Shown one piece after another: positions 6,761 through 52,600 of a stretch of 64,000 bases of DNA. The number at the start of each line of letters is the position of its first letter. The first letter of the stretch is position 1. Made by a program: the position numbers and the translations under genes. Under the pieces are notes generated by a model. The model was given only the letters and a program-made list of their open reading frames with translations, did no database searches and was not told where the DNA came from. This DNA comes from Larus michahellis (lineage: Eukaryota; Chordata; Aves; Charadriiformes; Laridae), in the NCBI RefSeq assembly GCF_964199755.1, contig NC_133917.1:5027967-5091966 (forward strand), in the 5' to 3' direction.

Positions 6761-6774
6761 CCACCAGGTGGCGC
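6761..6774 (+). promoter_or_regulatory. Candidate CTCF binding site
   Basis: CCACCAGGTGGCGC fits the 14-base CTCF core CCASYAGRKGGCRS at every position. It lies 0.4 kb downstream of the LRP1 poly(A) signal in a CpG-rich stretch. Occupancy is inferred, not shown. Confidence 0.6.
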
Positions 6775-35300: not shown

Positions 35301-35592
35301 GTGAAGGGTGCAAGGGGCGGCAGAGGGCAGGAGGAATGGGGGGTGGGAAGGAGGGAGAAGTGTATGGGGAAGCGCAGGGTCCCCAAGGCACATGGTGAGA
35401 GAAGGGCAAGGATGAGCCCGGGGGACAGGGGCTGCGGGGGGGGTCCCTGTGAGGAGGAGAGGGGCAGAGAGATGCAGAGGGATGGGGGGAGACGGGGTGG
35501 GGGTCCATGGAGGGAGAGGGTGTGGGGTGACTCACTCCGGGGTGACGCTTGACATGCCGGGAGAACATGGTTCCGAGGAGGGGGCCCTTCAT
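29362..35592 (-). CDS. NDUFA4L2: NDUFA4-like 2, mitochondrial complex-associated protein
   Basis: Small inner-membrane mitochondrial protein, paralogue of the complex IV subunit NDUFA4 and, in mammals, induced by HIF-1 to restrain respiration. Four coding exons on the minus strand: 35592-35536, 31713-31625, 29721-29661, 29418-29362. Phases fit and the product is 87 aa, the same length as human. Exon 1 gives [19 protein letters not shown]; exon 2 gives [14 protein letters not shown] followed by a hydrophobic helix ([15 protein letters not shown]); exon 3 gives [20 protein letters not shown], the family signature; exon 4 gives [18 protein letters not shown]. The wording FLAVSTDY and LSPxDQYK fits NDUFA4L2 better than NDUFA4. 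Tail to tail with SHMT2 as in mammals. Gene span of 6.2 kb is mostly introns. Confidence 0.95.
30606..30662. repeat. (TG)n/(CG)n microsatellite
   Basis: TG units interrupted by two CG segments, all strictly alternating purine-pyrimidine for over 40 bases; Z-DNA-prone. Confidence 0.9.
31000..31320. repeat. Pyrimidine-rich / ATCC-type low-complexity tract
   Basis: Includes (CT)9-10 at about 31065-31083 and many degenerate CATCC words such as CATCCATCC at 31249-31265. Confidence 0.6.
31714..35535 (-). other. NDUFA4L2: NDUFA4L2 intron 1
   Basis: 3.8 kb without a recognised exon. Starts (from exon 2) with a GA microsatellite at 31717-31744 and an AT-rich island to about 31960. Further AT-richer blocks lie at 33090-33110, 33260-33300 and 33380-33420. 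The stretch 35160-35530 is strongly purine-rich on the plus strand, that is pyrimidine-rich in the NDUFA4L2 transcript next to the exon 1 donor. Confidence 0.55.
31745..31960. promoter_or_regulatory. AT-rich island beside NDUFA4L2 exon 2
   Basis: About 215 bases of complex, AT-rich sequence adjoining the GA repeat in intron 1, with AATGAATATTTATC and TGAATTAAAAGAG words. Candidate conserved element by composition only. Confidence 0.3.
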
Positions 35593-35960
35593 GGCGAGGG
35601 TGTGGGGACGGTCCAGCTGCGATGGCAGGTTCCCGAGTGGCGTCGGAGGATGGAGGGTGGGCAGGAGACGTGAGGGAGGCGTCTGCGGCCGGGCTGGGAG
35701 GGACGGGGCGGGACGGGACGGGATGGGGATCCCGGCCCAGGGACATGGCGAGCTGGAAGGGGAGAGGGAGGCTGAGGCTCCGGCCCTGAGCTCTGGCTGC
35801 TCCCTGCGCCTCCCCCACGGCGAGCCCCAGTGACCGGGTTAACGACGAGCCTTGGGTCCGGACCCCCTGAGGTCCCTGCACCCCCCTGCACCCCCAGACT
35901 GCATTTGTGCCTCAGTTTCCCTCGCTGTACAGGGTGCCAGCCCCTTCCCTCCACGTGCGA
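35593..35960 (-). promoter_or_regulatory. NDUFA4L2: NDUFA4L2 promoter region with Sp1 and HIF-type motifs
   Basis: Upstream of the minus-strand start codon. A cluster of GGGACGGG units with a GC box GGGGCGGG (35705-35712) is about 115 bases upstream. HIF-type RCGTG cores occur at 35668-35672 (ACGTG) and within the palindrome CACGTG at 35952-35957. The start site is not determined; no TATA box is obvious. Confidence 0.4.
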
Positions 35961-36059
35961 ATCCTTCACAGGTTGTTCCGCACCTTCCTGCCCGGGCGAA
36001 CGATGAGTCGTGTGATTTGTTATGACAACTTCGCCGGTGTTTGCTGCCTCCCCTCAGCG

Positions 36060-36200
36060 TCCGTCCCCCCCCCTCCCATTTATGATAAATGACATAACAC
36101 CCAATTTACATTTAGCAATGCAAATCTCCCTGGCAGTAACAGATGCTGCTGTGCATATGGAAACCAGCTATTTGTATCCACTGGCTTTTAACAAAAGACT
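36060..36200. promoter_or_regulatory. AT-rich island with POU octamer
   Basis: Complex AT-rich block with TTATGATAAATGACATAAC, a perfect ATGCAAAT octamer at 36118-36125 and TGCATATG nearby. About 0.5 kb upstream of the NDUFA4L2 start codon. Confidence 0.35.
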
Positions 36201-36794
36201 GGGGAGACGGACGGAGTAGGCAGCCAAAAGCAGCAGCCTGGAACTGAGCAGGGACTGGGCCCCCCCAACCTTTATCTGGGGGGGGGCTGGTCACGCTCTG
36301 GCAGTGGCAAGAGCCAGCGCAGCCTGTGTTTTGGGGGGTGGCTGGGGGCAGAGCATGGCGAGTTGGTGTGTCACACACTTGATGGGCACAGGGGGGTCCT
36401 TGTCACACACCCCTTCCCCTGGGGGCTCCTGGCCAACGCCAGTGCCCCCCCACCGGCCAGTCTTTGCTCATGCAGACACATACACGCACACACATGCACA
36501 GACGGACAGCATACACGCTGGCACGGCGGCATCGCTTGCGCGTGAACACCCCTACACATACAGGCACACACACGCACACAAAGGCTCTGGGAATTCTTTT
36601 AGGCGCTGATTTGTGAGCCCCCCCCCCCCCGACTTTGAAATTTTGGCTTGGAGCACCCCAGGGGGCCTCTGCGCTCCCAACACAGCCCGGAGCCCCACTG
36701 CTGCCCCCCCAGCCCAGCCTCCCTCCTCACCTCAGCACCCTCCGCCTGGCACAGCCCAGCCCCGTCCGCGCCGCCCCGTCCCCACCTCATTTCT

Positions 36795-36945
36795 TTCAGC
36801 AAAGTGTAAAAGGACAAAGGGGAGAAACTTCACTGGAGTGTGTGGAAATAAATAAACAAGACCTGAACTGCAGCCAGCAGCGCCATGTTGAGGCCTTTGT
36901 TGATACAATTAGAGTTTTGAAACAGGATTGATTAAGTGCCACTCC
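36795..36945. promoter_or_regulatory. AT-rich island, candidate conserved element
   Basis: About 150 bases of complex sequence including GGAAATAAATAAAC and GTTGATACAATTAG, without simple repeat structure, bounded by C-rich DNA. Confidence 0.3.
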
Positions 36946-37729
36946 CCAAGACGGAGTGCATCCTGCCCTCGGCACGGGCACACGCGTGTCCTTCGCTGCC
37001 TTCCTCTGACAGCGCCTGCGGCACAGGGGCTGTGGGGTGGCGTATGGGGCGGGGGGGTGTCAGGTCGCAGCAGAGGTGTGCGGGGGGAGCTCACGGGGCA
37101 TGTGCGTATGGTGGGACTCGCGGGCAGAGCCATCACCCCTTTGGAGCACTGAACCCAAGCGCGGAGAAGGGTCCCAAGAGGGTGTCCGGCAGCATCAGGA
37201 GCCCTGGACATCGGGGGGATCTCGGTCCCATCACAGCCAGGGCTGCTCTGGCAGCAACCTGCAGCTCTGCACCCTCCCAGCCCGCGCTCCCAGCTCCCTG
37301 CGGACAAGCCCAGGACTTCCAGGGATGCAGCGGGATTCCCAGCCCACAAAGCCCAGCTGCCTCCAATGCTCATTGATGATTGTAATTAAGAGACAGTTTA
37401 ATTCTGTGCTGTGCTTCCCTCTCCTGTGGTGATTGCAGCATGTGCCCTGTTGCTCAGGAGCCCTCCTGGGTCGCTGCCCGCAGCCCCCTGGCAACGGCCG
37501 TCGAGGGGCTCGGCCCTGGGGGGGGCTCCAGTGCTTCCCCCCCCCCCGGCACTGAGGGAGACACGATGGACGCCAGAGAATAGACACTGATGGAGCTTCT
37601 GCTCTTTCATGGCTGCCCCTGCCCGGCACCGTGCAGATCTGACAGGTCAGCACTTTTGGGGGAAGAACGGGACAGCCCACAGACGCGTCCTAGAGAGAGA
37701 GAAGGAATTGCAGCGGCTGAGGTGGGGAA

Positions 37730-37975
37730 GCGTGCACACGCGCGGACACACGCCTGCAAAGGCAGAGCCACGCGTACGCGCCAGTCAAGGCAGCTCTGCA
37801 CTGACGCACACGCGTGTGCATGGAGACACGCCCCTGCCTGCACACACACGTGCACGGACACCTGCGCACACACACGCTCCAGCAGATGTGCACGGACACA
37901 CGGACACATCCCCCGTTACAAGCAGGCATACGCTTGCACACGTGTGCACACACACACACGCCACCTGTGCGGTCC
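37730..37975. repeat. CA/CG alternating minisatellite-like tract
   Basis: Dense CACACGYG, ACGCGTGTGC and GGACACA words over 245 bases, alternating purine-pyrimidine for much of its length; imperfect, variable spacing. Confidence 0.6.
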
Positions 37976-38589
37976 CTGGCCCCACACAAGGGCTATGGGG
38001 AGCTGCCCCCGCGTCGTGGGGAGCGGAAAATACAAACTGGGGGGGGTGGGGGGGCCGGAGAGAGCCGCTGGGTCTTGGTGCCTCCGCTCGCAGCTGCTGT
38101 GGAGGGTTATTTTACAACCACTCCAAAAATATTATTCAAGATGAAGGAGAATCACGGCTGCTGCGAGCAAGCGCAGGGCCGTCGCGGGGAATTTATCATC
38201 CCGAATTGGGTGCCCCCCCCTCTCTCCCCCCCCCACCCCCCCGCTCCCCGCAACGCCGTGGTGATGAAGTGCTTCATTAATGGGAGATGCTGCAGCTCGG
38301 GGCTGAACGTGCTTGCACCTGAGCGCGCCGGTTCCTCTGGCTCCCAGCCTTGGCTCTCAGCCCCCACCCTGCATCCACCCCCCCCCCCGAGACACCCACC
38401 CAGTCCCCCGGCTCCACACAGCCCCCCCACCGCACTGCCCCACAGCTCACAGCCTCCCCACGGCTCCCTGGCCCCACAGCTGGCACCCACTGGCTGCACC
38501 CCCCCAAACCCTGCGAGGAGCCGCCCAAACCCTCTTCTGCTGGTGCCACGGCGTCATCCCGCGCTGCTAACGGGGACCTTCCCCTCGTT

Positions 38590-38740
38590 AAGGCTCTGCT
38601 CATGCCGAAGCTGTAAATCTCGCTGGCTTTTGGCGGGGCGCAATGGAAACCGTCATAAAAAATTCATACCAACTAAAGCAAACAAACAATAAACAAACAG
38701 CCAATAATTAAATGGTGAATTAGCGGGATATATTTCATAG
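38590..38740. promoter_or_regulatory. AT-rich island, candidate conserved element
   Basis: AT-rich block with repeated AACAAACAATAAACAAAC (38677-38700) and CCAATAATTAAATGG. Part is low complexity; the rest is unique sequence. Confidence 0.25.
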
Positions 38741-39744
38741 CCGCACCGAGCTGCGCTGCGGGACGAGCCCCAGCACGGGGAGAAGGGGATGGATCCCGGG
38801 GGGCCGCGGCTCCTCCTGCGGGGGGAGGGAATGGCGTTCCTGGCCCTGTGGCGCAGCTGCCCTGGACCTGGCAGCGCTGCACCGGGGGCACGAGTGGCCC
38901 CGCAGGGGCTGGCGAGGCTGGGCAGCAGCTCCATGCAGGGCATCACATGCCAGCACTATCGTGACATGTCGTGATGACTTGCACAGCCAGACAATGGTGG
39001 CGTAACCGGGGCCCTTCCTCCCTGCCCCACTGCCATGCGCACACAGCGCTGGGACCGTCCCACGTCCCATCACCTTGAGCTAGCGCGTGGTGTCATGCCC
39101 ATCCCGCAGGATCATGCCTATCGCGTGATGTCACTGATCTCTATGACATCACAATCCCTTCCTTGCACCTGCCCTGCCCGTAACGCGCCGCTGAGCGTGG
39201 CTGCCTCCCAACACCCGGGGCTGGCCCTGGCACCATCCATCACACGGGACGGGCACAAACCATTTGTAACTGGCACCTTCATTTAAAGCGCTATTATCAT
39301 CCTAATTCCCCCCATTAATCACGGGGCGCTGTGTGATGAGCACCAGGAGAGCCTATCTCTGACCCACAACCGCTGCAGGATTGGGGGGGGGGGCCAGGCA
39401 CACCAGCCTCACACCTCCGAGGCTCTGACACTCCCCCCCCCCGCCCCAGTGATGCTGCAAAAGGCGGCCGAGATGACGCCCTTCCCCGTCCCCAGCGGCC
39501 CAGGGAGCCCAGGGCAAGGAAGGTGCCGCTCTCCCTTGGCCCTTTCCAGTGCCGGACCGCAGGCGGCGAGTGGGGTCCCCAGGAGGGAGGGGTACGCGCC
39601 CCCCCCCTCCCCCGCCCCCGCAGTAGGCAGGGGCTGCGGGACCCGAGCCCTGGCTGGGGGGTGGGTGCAGTGGGGGGGGTGCCAGCTCTTCGGGGCTGCT
39701 GCCGCACCGTGAGGCGTTTCCTGGAACCAACCCCACAATTAACC

Positions 39745-39935
39745 ACTGACTTGGCCCCGTCCCACAATATTGATTTTTTCTTTTTTTTTTTTTTTTCCAT
39801 AATTCTCTGAAGAAAAGCCCAGGCCCGGAGCTGTGGTTTCCAACGCCTGGTTTATAAATAACCGGGGTCACCAGCTGCCAATTGCTGTAACGCTGCCTTG
39901 ATACAATTTAATAAACATAATAGCCTCTGCCTTCA
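39745..39935. promoter_or_regulatory. AT-rich island before the 40 kb minisatellite
   Basis: Complex AT-rich sequence around a T-run (39780-39797), with TTTATAAATAACC, CCAATTGC and TGATACAATTTAATAAAC. It resembles the 36.9 kb island in sharing TTGATACAATT. Confidence 0.3.
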
Positions 39936-39999
39936 TTGTGACAAAGACACTGGCGGGGACCGAGCCGCGCCGAGCAGAGAACACACGGCAGAGACACGC

Positions 40000-40385
40000 G
40001 CACACGGCTGAGACATGCGTGCACGTGGCTGACGCGCACGTCTGAGACACGCAAGCACACGCCTGATACACATGTGTACAGGCTGAGACGTGCACGCACC
40101 TGGCTGACACGCGTGCACACGCGTCTGAGATGTGCCCACGCGCCCGAGACACGCCAGCGGGTGGCTAAGACACGCGTGTGCGCGCACCTGCGACATGCCA
40201 GCACGTATCGCGTACGCGCGGCCGCAGGCTGAGACGTGCAGACACAGGCGACGCGCGTGTGCGCACCTGCGACATGCCAGCCCGCATCGGCCACACGCGT
40301 GCCCAGGCTGAGACACGCGCACACAGGTGACGCGCGTGCACGCCCCCGAGACACGCAGGCACGTGTGAGACGCGCGCGCACGGCT
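40000..40385. repeat. CpG-rich minisatellite with ~79-base higher-order period
   Basis: Short CTGAGACACGCGYRCAC-like units, many carrying ACGCG. A longer period is visible: CACCTGCGACATGCCAG recurs at 40185 and 40264, 79 bases apart, each followed by a diverged copy ending GCAGGCTGAGACGTGC / CCAGGCTGAGACACGC. Confidence 0.75.
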
Positions 40386-40399
40386 GCGGAGTCGGGCGG

Positions 40400-41160
40400 G
40401 GGGGCGCAGGACGCGTCCCCGGGGGGGGAGACACACGGAGCCCGGTCCCGCCGCCCCCCCACGGGACACGCGCCGTCCCCGCGCGTCTTGGGCACCGGCG
40501 GCTCCCCGCCCCCGCCCCCGCCGGGCACACGTGCGCGCGCACGCGGTCCCGCGTGGGGCCGCCCCGGGTCCCGGAGCGCTGTGGCGCCCCCTCGTGGCCG
40601 CGGCGCGGGCCGGGGGGATCGGGAGCGGGAGCGGAAGCGGGACTGGAATCGGGACCGGGAGCGGGACTGGCCCCGGCCCCGGCCCCGGCAGCCGCCGCGT
40701 GCCGCGGAGCAGCCCGGAGCCCCCGGCCCGCTGCCATCACCCGCCGCGCGGGCCCGGGCACAGGGACCCTCCCGCAGCCGCAGCCCCCGTGGGAGCACTC
40801 GGCGGGCTCCGGGGAGCGGCCCGTACCCGGGCCCGGGACCCCCGCCCCGAAAGGACCCTGACCGCCCGCGGAGGCCCTGGAGAGCTCGGGTGCCCCACGG
40901 CTCCCGACACGGCGCGGGGGCGGCTTCTGGGCCGGGGGGCACCCTCTGCGCCGCGCAGGCCGGGGGCCTGTCTCCCACGTCCCGGCAGCCGCCCCCTCCC
41001 CAGCTCCCGCCCCCAGCCCCGCTGACTGATGCCAGAGACTCCAAAATCAATTCCCATCCCCGCCAGGACACGGCGAGAAGGCGACAAATCACGGCTGCGG
41101 CTCCGCAGCCCCAGCGCCTCATTTTTCTTGCTGAACTCCATAATAAGAAATCAATGGCAG
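40400..41160. promoter_or_regulatory. CpG island, unassigned
   Basis: Dense CpG with a (GGGAGC/GGGACC)n-like stretch at 40615-40690 and a CTCF-type motif. It passes into AT-richer, unique sequence at 41030-41160 that contains ATGGCAGACGCCGC at 41154. No known gene starts here in the syntenic mammalian region. Confidence 0.4.
40584..40597 (-). promoter_or_regulatory. Candidate CTCF binding site
   Basis: Minus-strand CCACGAGGGGGCGC: one mismatch to CCASYAGRKGGCRS (G at the Y position), a variant commonly seen in strong CTCF sites. Opposite orientation to the motif at 6761. Confidence 0.5.
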
Positions 41161-43064
41161 ACGCCGCACTCCTGATGCATCTCCCCCGGGACAGGCGGCG
41201 GCGGGTCCTCATGCCACCCCCACCCACCCCCCCCAACGCTTGGGTCCCCTCGCCAGGCCCCGGCTCTGGCGGGGCCCACGGCACAGGGCAGCTCCTGCCT
41301 CACCTGCAGACCCCGGCCCTCCCCTGGCCCCCCAAAGGCTCCCCACGTCGTGCCCCCCCCCCTCCCCATAAGCTCAGCCCCACACCGCCGCATGGGGCCA
41401 GGTTGATTCCCACCGCGGCACAGAGCCCTGAGTGCCCTGGCCGGTGGCACCGGCGTGTCCACCCCATCCTGCTGCAGCCTCCGAGGGGACTGTGGGGACC
41501 GGGGACCCCAAACAGGTCCCCACAGGGTCAGCGTGGGGGGGGGGGCCCAAACCCACCCTGGCGCGGAGCACAGCAGGGAGGCACCGGGCGGGCTCTTTGC
41601 TCAGATCTGCTGCACCAAAAGGCTGGGGGGGGGAGGCTGGGGGGGAAGGACCCAGGCGTCCTGCGGGCGCAGATTTGGGGGGGCACAGAGCCGCTGTCAC
41701 GCGGCAGCTCCAGCAGCTGCAGAAGGGCCTGGGCTGGGGAGAACCGCTCCAATTAGCTGTAATCGCGCTTCCCCGCGGTGCCTGACACCGAAAAACCTAC
41801 ATAATTACCAGCAGCGACAGGGAAGGCAGGACCAGGCGCTCGTGCTTAATTGAGTGTTTACAGCCCTGTGAGGGGGGGGCAATAACAGCTCTACAGAAAA
41901 GCAACCCCCCCCCCTCCTCAGCCCAGGCAGCGAAGACACGGGGAAGGGGGGGGGTGCGGGGAGAACAGCCCCATCCCTTTGCAGCAGGGTTCGTGCTGTC
42001 CTCGCACCCCTCCCCGGTCCCTTTCCCCAGGTAGACAGGACAAGTGGCCCCCGCCGCCGCCCCCACCAGCGGCCCTTCAGCTCCTGGTTGACTTGCAAAT
42101 GCAGCCGCAGGAGCTGGAGGTCTCGCTCCTGTCAGCTGGGCTGAAATCCCCGAGGCCAGCTGTGGGGGGGGGGGTCACCCTGTCCAGACGTGCCCCAGAG
42201 GCGGTGATGGGGCAGGGGGACACACCTGCCCAAGGTCTGGGTACTCCTGCCGGGGGCTACACACGATCCCCGAGGGACGGCCAGGTTTTGGGGCTGGCAG
42301 GGTCACACCGAGGAGGGGTGACCTCTGAAGAAGTGACAGGCGCCAGACCCCATCCCGCGGCCGACACCAACCTGCCCCCGCTGTGCCACCCCCAGCCCTG
42401 GTGGACAAGGCTCCTGCCCAGCTGTTTTCCTCTCGTTAATTTTTCATGAGCGTGATGATAATTCTGCTCACCGCGTTGCTGCGGACCCCATAACAATGAG
42501 CCGCGGCGCTACCCCCGGGCCAGGCAGCACCAGTGTCGGGGGACGGCGGGGGCCAGAGGTCTCCAAAGGGGGCACAGCCAGGGCTCTCCCCGCTGTGCCC
42601 CCACCTCCAGAATGAGAATGTGCTCCTGCATGTGCTCCTGCACGGCGTGCGGGGGGGCCACACGCACGGGGCAGCACACGCGTGCCGACACGCATGGGAG
42701 GACGCACAGGGACATACAGAGACATGTGTAGAAACACGGGCACAGTGATACGCGCTGGGATGGGGCAACCGGGTCAGAAAAATGCTGTTTTCTGTATCCT
42801 GTACGTAGGGGCACCTGGGAGGTGGGGTGGGGGGAGCGGGGCACGCCGACGTCCCCCTGCCAGCCAGGAAGGGCGCTCGGGCAGCACCCAGGGGTCTGAG
42901 CCCAGTCCTGGCAGACGCTCGCCAGCAGCCCCACGGCTGCATGGCACTGCCACCCCACGGCACGCTGGGGACGGGGCTGAGCCCCCCCAGCAGGGCTTGG
43001 GAGGGAGCGGGGGTGGGGGCAGACAGCTTTCTGCCGTACCAAGTCCTGCCCGCCCGGATGTCTG

Positions 43065-43200
43065 CCGCTTTCTGATGTGCCCAACTAGAATCACTAATTC
43101 CAATAAACCCAGGCTAGATTAATTTTCATTTCCCCATGCAAATCAGTGCTAATTAGGATGGATTTAGTTCACATCACAGGGGCTGTGGGGACAGACGCTG
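43065..43200. promoter_or_regulatory. AT-rich island with POU octamer and homeodomain core
   Basis: Complex AT-rich block containing ATGCAAAT at 43136-43143, TAATTA at 43150-43155, TAGATTAATTTTCATTT and CACTAATTCC. The densest cluster of homeodomain/POU-like words in the window. Confidence 0.4.
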
Positions 43201-45604
43201 CACACGGCCGTCACTCCCCAGCCAGGCTTTGGGGTGTTTCATCCTCGGTTAATGATGTGGGAGGGCGGCCCCCCCCCAGCCTGGAGGTCAGGAGCCAGCG
43301 TGGGGGCAGCAGGTAAAGCAGGGATTGCTGCGAGACGCCGGGTGCCTCTGACCACGCTCAGGCCCCGCACAGCGTCCCTGCGAGCACTCCCCCGCCCCGG
43401 ACAGCCCCCATGCTGGAGCCAAATCTGCCCCTCCCAGGCCTCCCCCCAAGAGCTTATCGCTGCCCCTGATTAATGCCCATGTGGGATGTTACTGGACCAC
43501 AGCGGTAACGAGCGCCGCTGATGGGGCAAACGCGGGTGCCAGGGGGAGGAGGGGATCTCGCCACCCAGGGACTCGGGCCCGTCGGGCGCCGGGGCTGGAG
43601 CGAGGAGGGTTTGCACGGCTCAGAGCGAGGAGGCAGCGACAGGCAGTGACAGGGGTCCCTGGGGGCCCCTCTTCACCAGCAGCCTTTTAAATGCAGATGG
43701 GGGGTCTGATGGGGAGCCTGGGCTGCCTTGCGCTGGGGAGCAGGCGGCGTCCCGGCACTGCCCCGGCTGCGAGCGGCCAGCAGCATCCAGCAGGACGCCA
43801 CCATCCATCCCCGGGCACCCGGGGCCTGCCCTGCTCCGCAGAGGGGCAGGTGGCAGCGCAGCACACACCCCCCCCCCCCAGCTCTTTCAGATTCTGCCTG
43901 TGCCTCCTGCCTTGCCAAATATTTAACTAATTAACGCTGCCCGCAGGCTCCTGTTTACGCAGCTTGTTGTTGAGCCAAGGAGGACTCCCGGCTGCCTCAG
44001 AGCAGGGATGGTGCAAGCTGCAAACGGGACGCCCCCGGCACAAAGCTCAGCCCCCCGAGAAGGGATGGGGTCCCCAGGCTGTCCCCGCTGCTGCCCACAG
44101 GACACAGCTGAGCCCCCACCGGGACCTGGCACCCTGTGCACAGCCCCGCACCCCCAATGCCATGTGTCCCCCAGCACCACGCAACCCCCGGCACATGTCT
44201 TGCCCCAGGGAGAGCCCCCCCTGCACCTGCACTGTGTGTGGGACAGTCACCAGCACCGTCCCCTCACGCCACGTGCCCGCACCGTGGCTGCAGTCCCCTT
44301 TGCCCCTTGCTCTGCCGCTCCCTGAAATCCGGCTTTCCGGGTGCCTCGCGCTCCCACCCCGCAGCCAAAGGTCCCCCAAACTCCTCTGCACCCCCAAGCA
44401 TCCCTGAGCAACGCTACCCCTCCTCTGCAGCACCAGAGAGGCTGGGGCAGGCTGGAGCTGGGGCGGGAGGGGGGCATTGCCCAGCTGCACAGCACCCCCC
44501 CCCTTTGCTCCCTTAGCCGGGCGAGTGGGGCATTCACAGCGCCGGAAGGTCAGGAGCCTTTACGCCCATCCTCGGGCAGGGGAAGGCAATGCCAACGGCC
44601 CCCGAGCGGTTCCCGATCCCCGAGCGGTGCAGCCTGGCTGTGGGGACAGCCCCAGAGGCAGGGGTCTGGTGCCATCGGCTCTCCCGCGGCAGGCCGGGGT
44701 GCCCCAGCCAGCGCTGGCACTGCCAGCCCCCCCAGCTGTGCCCGGGGACAGAGATCGGCAGGGGGCTGGGGCGGGGGCTGCGGGGGGCACCGCGCTGTGC
44801 CGTGGGGAGCAGGCAGCACGGCTCGGGGGCCAGGCAGGCTGCGCGGCCAGGGACAGCGTGACAAACAGCTAGAGGCAGTGCCTGCCTCCTGCCCTCATTA
44901 AATCCCCCCTAACGAGCTCAGCACTGAGCCCTGGGGCCCAGCTGGACTCAGAGCTGGTCATTACTGCTGACAAGGACCTGTCAAAGCAGGAGATGTGTGT
45001 GACACCCCCCCCATGCACAGCACAGCCAGTGGGGCCACACTGTGGGGGGGGACCACAGAGATGGAGACACCCACCCCCCAACCTTGCCAGCTCCCCTCGG
45101 GCCCTTCTGTCCGAGCGAGCGGGAAGATAATTGTACCCCCCCCCCAGGTCCTGGTGCAGGATGGGCCCCCCCCGCCTTGCCCACGCTGCTGCTCGGGGAT
45201 GGGGCGAGACTCACGCCACAGGGGGCTGTGTGGGGACTCTGGGGCTCCCCCAGCAGCAGCGCTGGGGCCAAAGGGAGACGGGGGCAGGGAGGGAAGGGGC
45301 AGAAGGAGGGAGCCCAGGCAGCCCTGAGGAGAGAGGCCTTGGGCCGGGTGGGAGACGGCGATGGTGGGGCGCTGGCCCAGGGAGCAGGGGAGTCCTGGAG
45401 CCAGGGCCGTGGGACAGGACTGCTGCCCAGCCCTGCATTTCCCCCACCAAGCTCCTCTCCCAGGACCTGCCTGGAGCAGGAGAGCTGGAGAAGGATGACG
45501 AGCGCGGATGACGAGCGCAGCCCCCCCCGCCGCTCGAATCCCCCAGCAGCGCTGCTCCTTCCCGGGAGCACCCTGGCACAGATAAGGAGCCCTGGTGATC
45601 CCCA

Positions 45605-45760
45605 GGGCACGTTTAATCTGGGACAGGACAGTTATTGGATAAATACCATGAATATGTAAATTGCATTTATGCTGATTTATGGCTGGGGGGGGCAGGTGAA
45701 GAGGGGAGATGGTTTAGTTTAGTTTAATGCATTTATTTCCCTGCCTCGAGATGGAGAACA
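45605..45760. promoter_or_regulatory. AT-rich island, candidate conserved element
   Basis: Includes TTATTGGATAAATACC, GAATATGTAAATTGC and (TTTAG)2TTTAATG; unique apart from the short TTTAG repeat at 45715-45725. Confidence 0.3.
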
Positions 45761-46476
45761 ATCTCTGAGCGCTGCATCTGCCAAGCCAGAGGAGACGATT
45801 CAGGCAGAGCCGCGCAGACGGGAGCACCCCGGGGCCAGGCTGGACGTGAGGGACCCCACCTGTGGGGACAAGAGGTGGGCAGGACGGGGGGTGCAGCACC
45901 CGGACACCTCCACCTCCCACCCCACTCCCTGGGGCTCACTGTCCTCACATGCCCCACAAAAGGGGTGCACAGGAGGCAGGTGCCCCCATCCCCTCCACGC
46001 CAGTGCTGCTCTCCTGGGATGACGTATGGATCCGGCACAAGACCAGCGGTATTTCAGTTGATTTCTGGGCCTTGCAAAGACTCCTGACCTTTCATGAGAT
46101 GCAGAGAGAAAGGGAGGTGATTAATCTGGCAGGTCAGGGTGGCTCCTCTGCTCTGATGTGTTACGTGGGGTCGGTGGCAGACCCCTTGCAAACACCAGCT
46201 GCAGAGGCTGTAGCAGTGAGATGCTGAGTGTCCCCATGCCAGAAGAGTCACTGCCCCTCTCTGGGTCACAACCGGGCCGTGGGCACCAGGAATGGGAAAA
46301 ACATGAGCCAGGCCAAAGCCTAAACTTCTGCTGCGCAGCCATGCTGGGGTGTGTGTGTGTGTACACACAGTGCCTGTGGGGCACACGCTCCCCTGACCAC
46401 ACCAGGCCACCCTGCGCCACCTTTCCCCCCCATGGAGGAGGCCATGGCACTCTCAGCCTCTTGCCCATCAGGTTCA

Positions 46477-47114
46477 AATCATAGAATGGTTCAGATTAGA
46501 AGGGACCTTAAAGCCCATCCAGTGTCCCCCCCCTGCCCTGGGCAGGGACACCTCCCACCAGCCCAGGTTGCTCCAAGCCCCGTCCAACCTGGCCTTGAGC
46601 CCCTCCAGGGATGGGGCAGCCACAGCTTCTCTGGGCAACCTGGGCCAGGGGCTCACCCCCCTCACAGCAAACAATTTCTCGTGTCTCAGATTTCATCTAA
46701 ATCTCCCTCTTCCAGTGTAAAACCCTTCCTCCTCGTCCCATGGCTCCCCTCCCTGCTCCAGAGTCCCTCCCCGGCTTTCCTGGAGCCCCTTGAGGGACTG
46801 GAAGGGGCTGGAAGGTCTCCCCGGAGCCTTCTCTTCTCCAGGCTGAACCCCCCCAGCTCTCTCAGCCTGTCCCCACAGCAGAGGGGCTCCAGCCCTCTGG
46901 TCATCTCTGTGGCCTCCGCTGGACCTATTCGAACAGGTCCATGTCCTTCTTACGTTGGGGACTCCAAAGCTGGACGCAGTACTCCAGGTGGGGTGTCACC
47001 AGAGCAGAGCAGAGGGGCAGAATCCCCTCCCTCGCCCTGCTGGCCACGCTTCTTGTGATGCAGCCCAGGATGGGGGTGGTCTCTGGGCTGCCAGCGCACA
47101 TTGCTGGCTCATGT
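46477..47114 (-). mobile_element. CR1 LINE, 5'-truncated 3' fragment
   Basis: Plus-strand text begins AATCATAGAATGGTT (46477-46491) and continues through stretches such as GGGACCTTAAAG, GGGCAGGGACACCTCCCAC, CTTCTCTTCTCCAGGCTGAA and GCTGGACGCAGTACTCCAGG, which I recognise as the reverse complement of the conserved 3' end of chicken-type CR1. The element is therefore on the minus strand, with its ATTCTATGATT-type terminus at 46477 and the 5' truncation near 47114. About 640 bases, moderately diverged with small indels. It has no coding capacity. It is the only clear interspersed transposon in the window and supports an avian (or at least sauropsid) source. Confidence 0.93.
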
Positions 47115-47274
47115 GACTCTCCCCACCTCTGCTTGCCCCCCGCATCTCACTTGCCATAAAGTTGTCCACCCCGGGGAAGGCGGAGGGCAGCAGGGGACTG
47201 GGCTGCAGCGGCCGGAGAGGCTGTGAGGAGCACCTGGGCACATGGCGGAGCTGTGAGGGGGGGGGAAGGAATTC

Positions 47275-47720
47275 ACCTCTTAATCTCCTATTAACTGCTG
47301 ATCAATCCAATTAGATCTTGCATGTAATGAAGGCCATCTGCTTGGTAGGGCTGGGCCCCAGCACTCCCTCCCCATCCCAACGCATGTGCCATCCTGCACA
47401 GCCGACGGAGAAGCCCGTGTGCGCTGGCAGGGAAGGGGTCTGGGGACGGGAGGCTGATGAAAGGGGTTTTACCCGATTTTCCAGATGACTCTAATTAAGT
47501 TGTTCTCTTCAGCTGTTAAATTAGCTGGAGCCTTCCCCCCTTCCCTGGGTGGTTCCCCCCCCTTCCCCTCCCTATTTCTCAGATGCAGCAAATCAGCTTC
47601 CAGCCCCCCCCGCAGGGCTCTTCAAATAAATAAATAGACAGTCCCAGTAAAATTAACCATATGAGGAGCTGCAAATGAGGTGGAAAATTTTAATGGTTCG
47701 GCATTTAAAAGCTGTCTGAC
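47275..47720. promoter_or_regulatory. AT-richer stretch with candidate conserved blocks
   Basis: Three AT-rich patches (47277-47340, 47470-47530, 47620-47720) separated by C-rich sequence. Words include TCCTATTAACTGCTGATCAATCC, CTAATTAAGTTG and AATTTTAATGG. Lies between the CR1 copy and the CpG island. Confidence 0.3.
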
Positions 47721-48379
47721 AGGAGGTAAGGACGTGAGTGAGCAAGGAGGAAGCAATCCTGGGAGATGTGTTGTCCCCCCCCACCCCCCATATTTCCATC
47801 ATTCTGTGCTGCCCCGGAGCGGCGTCTCCCAGCTGGGGCTGGGGAGGGACCCCCAGTGCGGAGACCCGGCAGCTGCCCCCGTGCCCCCCGCCCGGCGGCA
47901 GCCTCAGGGACCGCTGCGGGCCGGGGGACCCCGCAGGCCCCGGCCCTTCGTGGCGCCAGGGGGATCCGGCAGCGCTGACCCTGGGCCGGGCGGGCCCGGG
48001 CTGGCAGGGAGCCGGGGCCGTGGGCCACGCACTCCCGCGGGAGCTGGCAGCGGGCCACTGGGTGAACGGATCCGGCCACGGATGGTGCCTCCTTCCCGGC
48101 TCCATCACCGGGAGCGGCTCCCGGGTGCCAGCAGCCCCGGCACGGCCCGCCCGGCCAGAGGCGGAAGGTGGAGCCCCCCCCGCCCCGCGGAAGCCGAGCC
48201 CCTCCAGCGCAGCCCCTGCTGCAGGCGGGGCGGGATGAGAAAGGGGCGGCCGGGCCGGCACTGGGGGGGCGGCGGGACGGGGGGAGCACGGGGACCCCCC
48301 CCCGGCCCGGCCGGCGGCCTCCGCGGGGCAGCCCCGGTAGCGGGACGGGGCTGCGGGACCGGCAGCGCCGGGCTCGGGG

Positions 48380-48990
48380 GACCGGCTCGCCCTCGGGTCC
48401 CGCCGCCCCCTCCCCGGGGACGCCGCGATGGCGGCGGGTGAGCGGGACGGGGCTCGCGCCGCCTGCAGGGCTCGCCGTCCGCCAGGGGGCGCCGCGTCCG
48501 CCGCCGCCTCGTCTGCAGAGCTGTGCACACGGCGGTGCCGCGCGGCGCGTCAACAGCGCCCCCTCCCGGCGAGGCCCGTACCGGGAGCCCGCAGCGCCGG
48601 CGGCCCCGCCGAGGCCTCCGCCCGCCCCGGCCCGGCGGGTTCCACGGCGATCGCGGCCTCGCTGCGGCCCCTCCGGGCCGGGCCGTCCCAGCGCTGCTTG
48701 TCGCCGGGGCGACGGGCGGCGCGCGCTACCGGTCCCCGTCGCCATGGATACCGCCCTGCCCACCCCCGCGGCCCCGCTTCCGGCCCGTCACCGTAGCTAC
48801 CGCCGACGTCACGCTTCCGGGACGTCACGGGCGGCTCGCGCAGCCGCCACCGCCTCCGCCGGGCCCTCACCCCCCCCCCCCCGGCGCAGGCAGCGGGGTC
48901 GGCGGCGTGTCGGCCCCGGGGCGGGCGCTCCCTCCCGCGCCGCCCGCCCGGCCACCTGTTCCTGGCTCGGTGCTCGCCCCCCGCCTTCCA
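48380..48990. promoter_or_regulatory. CpG-island promoter without an identified gene
   Basis: CpG-dense DNA with an ordered set of housekeeping-promoter motifs: ETS CTTCCGG at 48777-48783 and 48814-48820; CRE-like GACGTCAC at 48805-48812 and 48821-48828; YY1-like GATGGCGGC at 48427-48435, directly followed by a good donor context GGTGAGCG; and a CTCF-type motif at 48479. No recognised gene begins here; STAC3 ends about 0.4 kb away on the minus strand. Direction of transcription is not determined. Confidence 0.5.
48479..48492 (+). promoter_or_regulatory. Candidate CTCF binding site
   Basis: CCGCCAGGGGGCGC, one mismatch from CCASYAGRKGGCRS (G for A at position 3), within the orphan CpG island. 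Confidence 0.5.
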
Positions 48991-49351
48991 AGGACTCGTC
49001 CTGTCCCCGCGCCCCGTCACCTGTCGCCCGCGGCCCCTATTCGGGCCCCGCCGGGCCCCGCGCCAGCGCCCGGCCCCGGCTCTCCCGGGGATGCGGAACG
49101 GGGCCGGGGGGGGTGGTCCTGCCCCCTTCCCCTCGCACCGCCCGGGGCTGCGCGGATCCCAAGGGGGGTCGCGGGTGCCGCGTTGGGGTGGAGGGTCGGG
49201 GAAGGGGCCTGTACGGAGCAGGAAAGCGCCGGCGCAGCCCCCCCCCCCCGGCCCGGTCCGCAGCAGCTGGGGCCACCGGCAGCCCCGCCGTGACCCCCGT
49301 CCGCCCCCCCAGGAAATCCAAAGCGGGGCGAGCGCGGCGCTGGAGCAGACG

Positions 49352-49357
49352 TGTATT
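49352..49357 (-). terminator. STAC3: Possible STAC3 variant poly(A) signal AATACA
   Basis: Minus-strand AATACA about 340 bases downstream of the STAC3 stop. No canonical AATAAA or ATTAAA is seen on this strand between the stop and about 47.7 kb, so this variant hexamer is the best nearby candidate. Confidence 0.35.
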
Positions 49358-49696
49358 GCCGAAACCCGGGATCGCACAGCCCGGAGCAGCGGGGCAGGAC
49401 CGCGCTCACCCCCCCGAGGCACCCGCCACCTCGGGCGGGGGGGCTGGGCGGCCTCCAGAAGGAGCCTGGGGATGCCCCCTCCCTGCCCCCCGTGTCTCTG
49501 AAGGCACCAAAAACCCCACGGGGGAAACAGCCCACGAGGTGCCTCCCCCACCCCCGGCCCGGTGGAGACGGTCCCCACCGGAGACCCCACCGCCGCAGGC
49601 ATCGGGGAGAGGGGGGGCTGCTGTCCCCTCCCCATCCCCATCCCAGCCGGGGTCCGTCCCTTCCCCGGCTGGGGGGCCCTGGGACGCTGCCCCCGC

Positions 49697-52600
49697 TCAG
49701 ATCTCCTGCAGGAAGTCCACGGGGAAGAGCCCCACTTTGCGGCCGGTGGAGACTTTCACGTAACCGTTCACCTCCTCGCCCTTCTGCACCACGATCTGGG
49801 GGCGAGAGGGGCGCAGGTGAGACCCCCGGGGCCCCACAGAGCCGGGGGAAAGGCGGCAGCCCCCGGGCTGGGCAGAGGGGGTCCCGTCCCGGGGGGTGGG
49901 CGGTGTGGGGACGCTGTCACAGGCCGGGCAGAGCGTGGCCGGGGGGTGCCAGGGGGTGGCCGTGGGGTGGGGGGCTGCAGGTGGGGGCGGGAGGACCACG
50001 GGCTGTGACGGCGTGGTCCCGTCTCACCTGATCTTTCTTCAGCGTGATCTGCCCGATCTCCCGGTTGCCCACGAAGGAGCGGGTCACCTTGTGCACCCGC
50101 TCACCTGCCCGCACCCGGATGATGAAGTTTGGAGGGAAGTAGCCGACTTTTTCACCGATCTTCCCCTGAAAGAAGTCAGTGGATGGGTGTGAGGTGGGGG
50201 TTGGAGCCAACCTGTATGGCCTCCAGATTCCCCCATGACAAACAGCCTCTGCAGGTGGTGGCTTGGCCCGAGGACGCAGCAGATTTCGGGGGCTGTGTGC
50301 CCCGCAGAGTGCGATTTGCGCTCCCAGCTGACGTCTCCCTCTGCTTTAAGCTCTGCATCTTTCCCCTCTGTGCTTGTAGGACGCCAGCCTTACCCGCCAC
50401 CACTCCTCGTTGGAGTCATCCACCACGGTGATCTTCTCCCCTGGCCTGCAAAGGGAAGGCAGGGCTCAGTGTGAGGGGGGGGCGTGCGCTGCCCCGCCAT
50501 GGGAGACCCTGAGGTTGTCAAGGAAAATTGCCCTTCCCACAGCACTGGCTCCTAGAGCCCCGTGTCGGGGGAGGCTGAGGAACACGCACAGCCTGCGGGC
50601 TCAGGGACAGCCAGGTCCCGTGCGGGAACAGCTCTGCGTCAAGTCCGGGGGGCAAGAAATGAGTGGAACCGCATCAGGAGAAAGACCCGCAGCCTCGGGA
50701 CTGAGGCTGGTGCCCAGAGCCCGGGGGCTGGGAGAGCTGCCGCAGCCAGAGCCAGGGCCCCCGCTCCAGAAAAGCCACAAAACCCAAACCACAGCCAGCG
50801 TGGCTCTAATTTCTGCCCTCATTCATTCATTCGCAGACCTCTCCTGGCCGCAAGAGCCTCATAGTTGAGGCGAAGATTTCTCCCCCTCCCCACTGGACAC
50901 GCCACGTCCTTCCCCTCGTCACCCCTGTGCCCCCTACATGGCTGGGAACTTACGGGAAATCAAGGTCATCTTTCTCCAGGGCTTTGAAGCGATAAAGTGC
51001 CACAAAATAGTGAGACTGCAGGTAGCCACCGCGGATCCCTGGCTGTGGCTTCTTGTTCTAGGGGAGGAGGAAAGAGGGGTTGGGAACCCCAGAGAGGGTG
51101 AGGACAGCCCCGGGGAGCCCAGCAGGGAGATCCCTGCGGCCTCTGCCCAGGCTGCCGGGGGCCTTTTGGGCATAGGGTGAGGGCGACAGCCACCTTGTCA
51201 TCTGTTGGGCTCTTCTCAGTCTTCTTGTCCCCTTCAGAGGTGCCTGGAAATGGGAGGAGGGCGGTTACATCCCTCCTGGTGCTGCTCCCTGCGCTGGGAC
51301 CAGCTTCCTCCCGAGGGTCACCTGTGCCCACGTCAGTGAGGGAAGCAGAGTGCCCCAGGGTGGAGACCTGAACTGAAGACCCCCTTTTGCAGGGTCAAAC
51401 CCACCCCAGTGGGCCCCCCAAGTACAGTCTCCCCATCAGGCTCCCTCCCGGCCCCATGCTTGTGGCTGGAGCGCGTTCCCCCCCCAGCTCCTTGGCCCTT
51501 GTGTGCAGCCGGCCCCGCCGCCCTCGCAGCACTCACCGCCCTCGGCTTTGCCCCCTTCTGTCTTCGTGGCCTCTGGTTCCTCATCCATCATAGCAGCCAG
51601 AGGCTGCAAGGCACAGAGCTGTCAGGGGGTGCAGGGCGGGCAGGGAGGTGGGGGTGGCAATGGGGCGCAGGCTGTGCTGCTGGGACCCTGGGGCGTTCGG
51701 AGCGCCAGGCCAACCCCGCACTCACGTTTTTCTTGTCGTCCTGCCCTTTCTTGCGCTCCTTGTTGGCCATAATGACGCCCGTCCGCAGGGTCTCGAACAC
51801 AGGGTCGCTCCTGTTGGCTGCTGCTGGGGCATAGGGATGGCGAGAGGGGCTCAGCCCCAGGACGCGAGGAGATGGGGCACCCGGCGTGGGGGCGGCACTT
51901 ACAGAGCAGATCCTTGGCGCAGGCATATTGCTGGTCGCTGTAGAGGGGTGAGCTGTACGCCCGGCGGAACCCTGGGGGCTGGAAGGAAAGAGGAGGTCAG
52001 AGCGTTGACCGCCACCCCGACCCGTGGGCCCTCCCGCGGGGGCTGAGGGCAGAGCGGGTGGACCCCCCCGGCAGAGGGTGAAGCCGGGGTTCATCCCTCG
52101 GACCCAGGACGGGAGGTGGGGCATGGCGCCCCGGTGCTGCCCACGGGGACCGAGCCGGCCGCTCCCCGCCGCGGTGCTTCGGCCTCCCCCGCGAGGTCGT
52201 GCCCCCAACCCCGGGGCCGCTGGAACACTCACGATTTTGCCGAAGCAGCGCTGCATCTCCACGTAGGACTGGCAGTGGTGGTGGATGTTAGTTTTGCAGT
52301 TCTTGCACCTCAGGCCAAATTTGTTGTTGACTGGCGGTGGGGGGGCAGGGGGGTGGAAAGGAGAGGCAATGTGACACTGCAGCTGCGGGGACGGCTGGGC
52401 TGGAGCCCTTGCCAGCCTTGGCCCCCAGCCCTCGCCCTGAGCGTGGCCCCCAGCCCCAGCCCCCTCAGGACTCACGGACAATCATGCGGGCACAAACATC
52501 ACAGAACTTGGGCTTTTTGAAGTAATGATCTTTGAACTTGTGGGGTTTGTCATTGACAAGTTTCTGGGGCTCGGGAGGGGGCTCAGGCTCTTCCTCCTCT

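Follow-up and report, generated by a model that had tools for sequence, protein, structure and literature searches.

Here we describe a CpG island in a gull genome that lies immediately beyond the STAC3 coding sequence and holds a closely packed array of alternating ETS and CRE words. Judged from its letters, this stretch is fairly probably an orphan CpG-island promoter, one that would probably be transcribed leftward, giving either a noncoding RNA or a distal 5′ exon of NDUFA4L2. Promoter function of some kind at the island appears likely. The island, the clustering of ETS and CRE words within it and the rarity of this arrangement in the genome are direct observations. Counted in favor of the promoter reading are a packing of words that simulated sequences did not reproduce (0 of 4000), a gene-start locus, that of EIF3I, as the other genomic match to the ETS-CRE-ETS order, and blank searches with Pfam, Rfam and a tRNA finder.

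Genomic setting of the island

The window, that is the whole stretch of 64,000 nucleotides analyzed here, corresponds to C26:5027967-5091966 of the 1.4-Gb genome. Neighboring genes were placed in it by tblastn with four human probes, giving the order SHMT2 (+ strand, 24.8-28.0 kb), NDUFA4L2 (- strand, coding exons between 35592 and 29365, the first at 35533..35592) and STAC3 (- strand, last coding exon at 49700..49795). NDUFA4L2 and STAC3, named as the flanking genes in an earlier sequence-only reading, are confirmed by this order. The CpG island spans 48091..49470 (about 1.4 kb) and has a GC content of 0.81 and a CpG o/e of 0.90, a base composition that qualifies it as a CpG island. Together with its array it follows closely on the STAC3 coding sequence; relative to NDUFA4L2, it lies about 13 kb upstream of the start codon.

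The island was considered as the promoter of STAC3 itself and rejected in that role because STAC3 is transcribed leftward and it is the last of its coding exons that adjoins the island. Past the STAC3 coding end the minus strand carries two poly(A)-like words, AATACA at 49357 and ATTAAA at 47694, and AATAAA is absent from that strand in 47.0-49.8 kb. Either word could mark the 3′ end of STAC3, and use of the far one (47694) would place the island inside the STAC3 3′ UTR.

No gene start was recognized at the island by tblastn with the four probes or by Pfam in six frames of 35.6-49.4 kb, and these searches revealed no divergent gene starts on either side, STAC3 ending rather than starting on the right. 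The island stands apart by its words: among the 15 CpG-rich stretches of the window, CTTCCGG, TGACGTC or exact X-box words occur in 48091-49470 only, and a looser CRE-like variant is found in one other stretch (37711-38070). NRF1 words (up to 1 mismatch), CCAAT and TATAWA are absent from 47900-49700.

Packing of ETS and CRE words

The array occupies 48777..48828 and consists, in order, of CTTCCGG (48777-48783), GACGTCAC (48805-48812), CTTCCGG (48814-48820) and GACGTCAC (48821-48828), with spacings of only 1 and 0 bases within its CRE-ETS-CRE part. We take CCGGAAGT, TGACGTCA and AANATGGCGGC to be the consensus words of ETS, CRE and YY1 sites, respectively; measured against these words, each ETS site and each CRE of the array has 1 mismatch. 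On the plus strand, about 350 bases from the array, a YY1-like GATGGCGGC (48427-48435) is followed by a donor-like GGTGAGCG (48437-48444), from which an intron would start at 48438. The YY1-like site differs from AANATGGCGGC at two positions and contains an ATG with G at -3 and +4. Both the alternation of ETS and CRE motifs within 52 bases and the YY1-like and donor-like pair had been noticed from the sequence alone, and all these words were found where they had been reported.

Taken singly, the words are not enriched over the window: CTTCCGG occurs 3 times against 13.4 expected, GACGTCAC twice (at least 2 copies in 18 of 100 shuffles) and GATGGCGGC twice (at least 2 copies in 22 of 100 shuffles). 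Their packing was compared with 1.5-kb sequences simulated under four Markov models, for which the training sequence was either 48001-49500 or the 611-base core and the order either 1 or 2. A pair of ETS words together with a pair of CRE words, all starting within 52 bases, was obtained in 0 of 4000 sequences under each model, a number of runs that resolves no probability below about 1 in 4000. Even two copies of GACGTCAC anywhere in 1.5 kb were rare, appearing in 2, 3, 4 and 8 of 4000 simulations under the four models. The single words are thus ordinary and their close packing exceeds chance, for a pattern that was picked post hoc, after being seen.

Comparable arrays in the genome

Across the 1.4-Gb genome, CTTCCGG-GACGTCAC-CTTCCGG (gaps 0-30), in this word order, matches at two places, the array site and a second locus (L002), and the reversed-pattern control gives 0 matches. 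The order GACGTCAC-CTTCCGG-GACGTCAC matches once, at the array site, with 1 match for its reversed control. On one side of L002 lies the start of EIF3I, where 29 residues match eIF3 subunit I of PDB (best E 4.5e-15); on the opposite strand is TMEM234 (Pfam PF10639, E 6.5e-13), the first matched piece of which begins about 0.7 kb away. We infer that the ATGGCG next to the L002 array is the TMEM234 start codon. With that start codon, EIF3I and TMEM234 appear to start head to head within about 85 bases (L002 1501-1610). This locus (L002, L012) resembles the array site in its ETS-CRE-ETS order, its CpG-rich DNA and an ATGGCG followed by a donor word; it differs in having one CRE, wider spacing and identified genes on both sides. 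Exact X-box words are absent from positions 1300-1800 of L002. That the only other ETS-CRE-ETS match in this order falls at EIF3I/TMEM234 supports the earlier suggestion of a constitutive-promoter grammar within a CpG island.

The simpler ETS-CRE pair has 25 genome matches, 2 of them at the array site. CpG-island-like DNA (GC >0.60, o/e >0.65) surrounds 15 of the 25, including both array-site matches, and these were counted in favor of the promoter reading; the 10 that lie outside such DNA were counted against it. Four of these 10 are copies of one repeat on C38: L032-L035 (C38:21.14-21.28 Mb) share identical letters of the pair, lie in low-GC DNA and seem to represent a local family of repeats. 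Another of the 10, L022, has the start codon of INTS2 about 25 bases away (Pfam 4.1e-10; PDB 3.9e-30). L017 and L029 look like the starts of PPP1R21 and PEX11G; their short first exons gave nothing by Pfam, and both were for this reason left out of the gene-start tally. L016 and L039 share the same matched letters and so may be one place counted twice. A backwards control for the 25-match pair search returned 118 and 105 matches, more than the count itself, and was set aside as an unfair baseline because the reversed words hold no CpG.

Direction of transcription and predicted product

Splice signals were scored with generic frequencies, and the score is not specific, since a decoy in a STAC3 coding exon that is not a donor reaches 11.2. 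On the same scale four real STAC3 donors score 6.0, 6.1, 9.1 and 10.9 and the NDUFA4L2 exon 1 donor 5.8. The best donor in the island on either strand is that at 48438 (+), which scores 8.9 and could possibly mark a rightward start. On the minus strand, donors to the right of the array score 7.9 (48870) and 7.2 (49020); the one to its left (48581) scores 5.9, at the low end of the five real donors (5.8-10.9).

An ATGGCG at 48740..48745 (- strand), similar to a YY1 core or a start codon, lies about 30-90 bases left of the array. Leftward transcription, on the minus strand, is weakly favored as the productive direction because the array would then sit in the usual place of promoter words, at most about 80 bases upstream of a putative start near 48750-48775, with ATGGCG 5-35 bases downstream of it, a placement typical of YY1-type words. 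The proximal promoter in which ETS and CRE words gather is given in PMC3464117 as the 120 bases before the start.

In the mechanism that we propose, the CpG-rich DNA of the island would be kept open, and factors of the ETS (GABP-type) and CREB/ATF families would bind the array at 48777-48828. RNA polymerase II would start near the array, possibly in both directions, the leftward start falling near 48750-48775 as above. The leftward RNA would enter the 36-48 kb interval and either be noncoding or supply NDUFA4L2, by splicing, with a distal 5′ exon. The excerpted text of PMC3464117 notes that proximal promoters often combine ETS with CRE words and cites reports of cooperative binding of GABP alpha and CREB to sites up to 15 bp apart. 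The overlapping ETS-CRE composite C/GCGGAAGTGACGTCAC treated there is like the array in that ETS and CRE are packed as in proximal promoters; unlike the array, in which the words do not overlap, it has the form CGGA-N4-ACGT. The exact GABP/CREB overlap CGGAAGTGACGTCA (CGGA-N4-ACGT) is accordingly missing from the array, the closest arrangement being the CGGA-N6-ACGT read on the minus strand of 48804-48828.

What the island might produce was approached by elimination. A protein-coding gene in 35600-49401 was rejected on a Pfam scan of six frames, which returned no family at E values up to 0.1. Applied to the control locus, such a scan picked up the TMEM234 pieces, so exon-sized pieces are detectable and small or fast-changing exons would escape. 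An RNA gene was likewise rejected, Rfam giving no match at gathering score over the whole 64 kb and ARAGORN no tRNA in the window. A duplicated gene at 36000-45990 was rejected as well: against the genome this interval gave at least 12 matches, and those listed were short and weak (best E 7.3e-9 among them). Literature searches on NDUFA4L2 (with STAC3/R3HDM2, promoter/CpG island and start site/hypoxia) revealed no bird transcript here in the titles and abstract openings of the matches listed. By this elimination the RNA would probably be either noncoding or a distal first exon of NDUFA4L2. A new bird gene at the island is possible and unsupported.

Alternative explanations

The distal-exon outcome can be sharpened into an alternative of its own, namely that the island is a distal promoter of NDUFA4L2 with a noncoding first exon spliced over about 13 kb to an acceptor at 35752. 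This is a special case that overlaps with the preferred reading and was rated separately, as rather unlikely. NDUFA4L2 is the next minus-strand gene found, no gene was recognized by Pfam between it and the island, and the acceptor-like site at 35752 (-) scores 10.5 and lies 160 bases before the NDUFA4L2 ATG. In addition, the excerpt of PMC4312439 lists under NDUFA4L2 a human array probe that lies in a CpG island. However, minus-strand acceptors of at least 10 occur at 0.44 per kb, the donor to the left of the array, at 5.9, is weak, and NDUFA4L2 may own a near promoter, for which the ACGTG at 35953 is a candidate. NDUFA4L2 is under HIF control. The ACGTG word, upstream of the gene, could be a hypoxia response element.

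That the island acts mainly as an enhancer or boundary element, a CpG-island enhancer with CTCF-like sites and AT-rich neighbors that yields unstable RNA only, we consider unlikely. A CTCF-like site, CCGCCAGGGGGCGCC (1 mismatch to the consensus), is present at 48479..48493 (+), a weaker one (2 mismatches) at 48555-48569 (-), and 11 AT-rich blocks lie in the neighboring 36-47.8 kb; the short form of the CTCF-like word has 2 matches in 64 kb, at 6761 and 48479. Against this account, the ETS, CRE and ATGGCG words are of promoter type and their nearest genome match is at a gene start.

It is quite improbable, in our estimate, that the island serves as promoter to an RNA or small gene so far undescribed, controlled by RFX and CREB/ETS factors, present between STAC3 and NDUFA4L2 in birds and their kin and lost or unrecognized in mammals. 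The sites that raise this idea are three degenerate X-box (RFX)-like sites at 48700-48713, 48738-48751 (1 mismatch) and 48787-48800, the middle one containing the ATGGCG described above; a fourth (1 mismatch) lies apart from them at 49263. The consensus used was GTNRCCNNRGYNAC, and the cluster was spotted after the fact. Exact GTNRCCNNRGYNAC matches number two in 64 kb (48700 and 48787), and simulations under each model gave two exact sites within 90 bases in 0 of 4000 runs and a trio of near-matches within 101 bases in 0 of 1000. Judged by eye, the site at 48700 is the only one of the three to fit the published RYYNYYN1-3RRNRAC (PMC2375033), and in the fly, according to the same source, an X-box by itself does not predict RFX control. 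Ciliated cells are named as a candidate tissue solely because human RFX2-motif gene modules are enriched for cilium terms in the excerpt of PMC5514134. A transcript under RFX and CREB/ETS control would be sought first in ciliated or sperm-forming cells.

A chance cluster of motifs in a silent GC-rich stretch would agree with the lack of enrichment of single words in the window, with a GC of 0.81 and with a pattern picked after being seen, but is very unlikely given a packing that none of 4000 sequences reproduced under any of the four models and an order that is rare in the genome, its only other ETS-CRE-ETS match being a gene start. Highly improbable, finally, is an undescribed rightward gene running antisense across STAC3 from a first exon ATGGCGGCGG that would be spliced from the donor at 48438: an ATG in GATGGCGGC context with the 8.9 donor directly after it and an acceptor of 7.7 at 49313 would suit it, but plus-strand donors of at least 8 occur at 0.77 per kb, the array would fall about 350-400 bases downstream of such a start, and plus-strand frames up to 49.4 kb hold no Pfam match.

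Relation to known CpG-island promoters

As an orphan CpG-island promoter, the island fits a common and already described class, that of CpG-island promoters without a named gene. Orphan islands make up about half of mammalian CpG islands according to the excerpt of PMC2944787 (Illingworth et al. 2010), which reports evidence of promoter activity for 42 % of human orphan islands, or 60 % counting H3K4me3. In chicken, the excerpt of PMC5600399 gives 12,644 robust CAGE TSS (40 %) without a gene model and about 70,000 predicted islands, 48 % of them tied to a gene. Because orphan islands and start sites without gene models are so numerous, chicken included (PMC2944787, PMC5600399), the gull island can be regarded as a well-marked member of this class. 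It shares with the orphan islands of PMC2944787 a position away from any recognized gene start and promoter-like features; unlike those mammalian islands, it is known from sequence alone.

A positional counterpart exists in human, where PMC13025873 describes a region of constitutively low methylation that spans clustered CpG islands at the 3′ end of STAC3. Its authors propose that methylation in myoblasts may dampen "promiscuous transcription initiation" at these 3′ islands, and the excerpted discussion places the methylated STAC3 stretch among "intragenic or promoter-upstream" ones, a grouping by which that stretch may be located within the human gene and not beyond it. The human cluster and the gull island, both of CpG-island type and both at the 3′ end of STAC3, are matched by position only; they differ in that the human one may be intragenic, and the excerpt of PMC13025873 describes no ETS/CRE array there. 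The sequence-only interpretation thus stands in part. Its promoter words in a CpG island hold, with the other ETS-CRE-ETS match at EIF3I/TMEM234, and its expectation that nothing would start between NDUFA4L2 and STAC3 is weakened by these human STAC3 3′ islands (PMC13025873) and by the chicken CAGE start sites in the excerpt of PMC5600399.

An active island would mean an unassigned start site on a gene-dense bird contig, near a muscle gene and a gene for a mitochondrial protein. Occurrence of an island at this end of STAC3 in human as well as in bird would point to an old regulatory element; more likely is the ordinary reading, membership in the class of promoters without a named gene.

Further features of the interval

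The interval left of the island, about 65 % GC, is interrupted between 36061 and 47770 by 11 AT-rich blocks of 100-250 bases (GC <0.48 per 100), in which homeobox-like words were seen by eye. In their letters these blocks resemble conserved noncoding elements, for which they are candidates. The interval also contains another CpG-rich stretch without a recognized gene, at 39941-41250 (GC 0.74, o/e 0.98), with 10 GGGCGG words and no ETS, CRE or X-box words; its left part is CA/CG-rich and repeat-like. A block at about 46480-47150 is presumably a CR1-like retroposon, as recognized from its letters.
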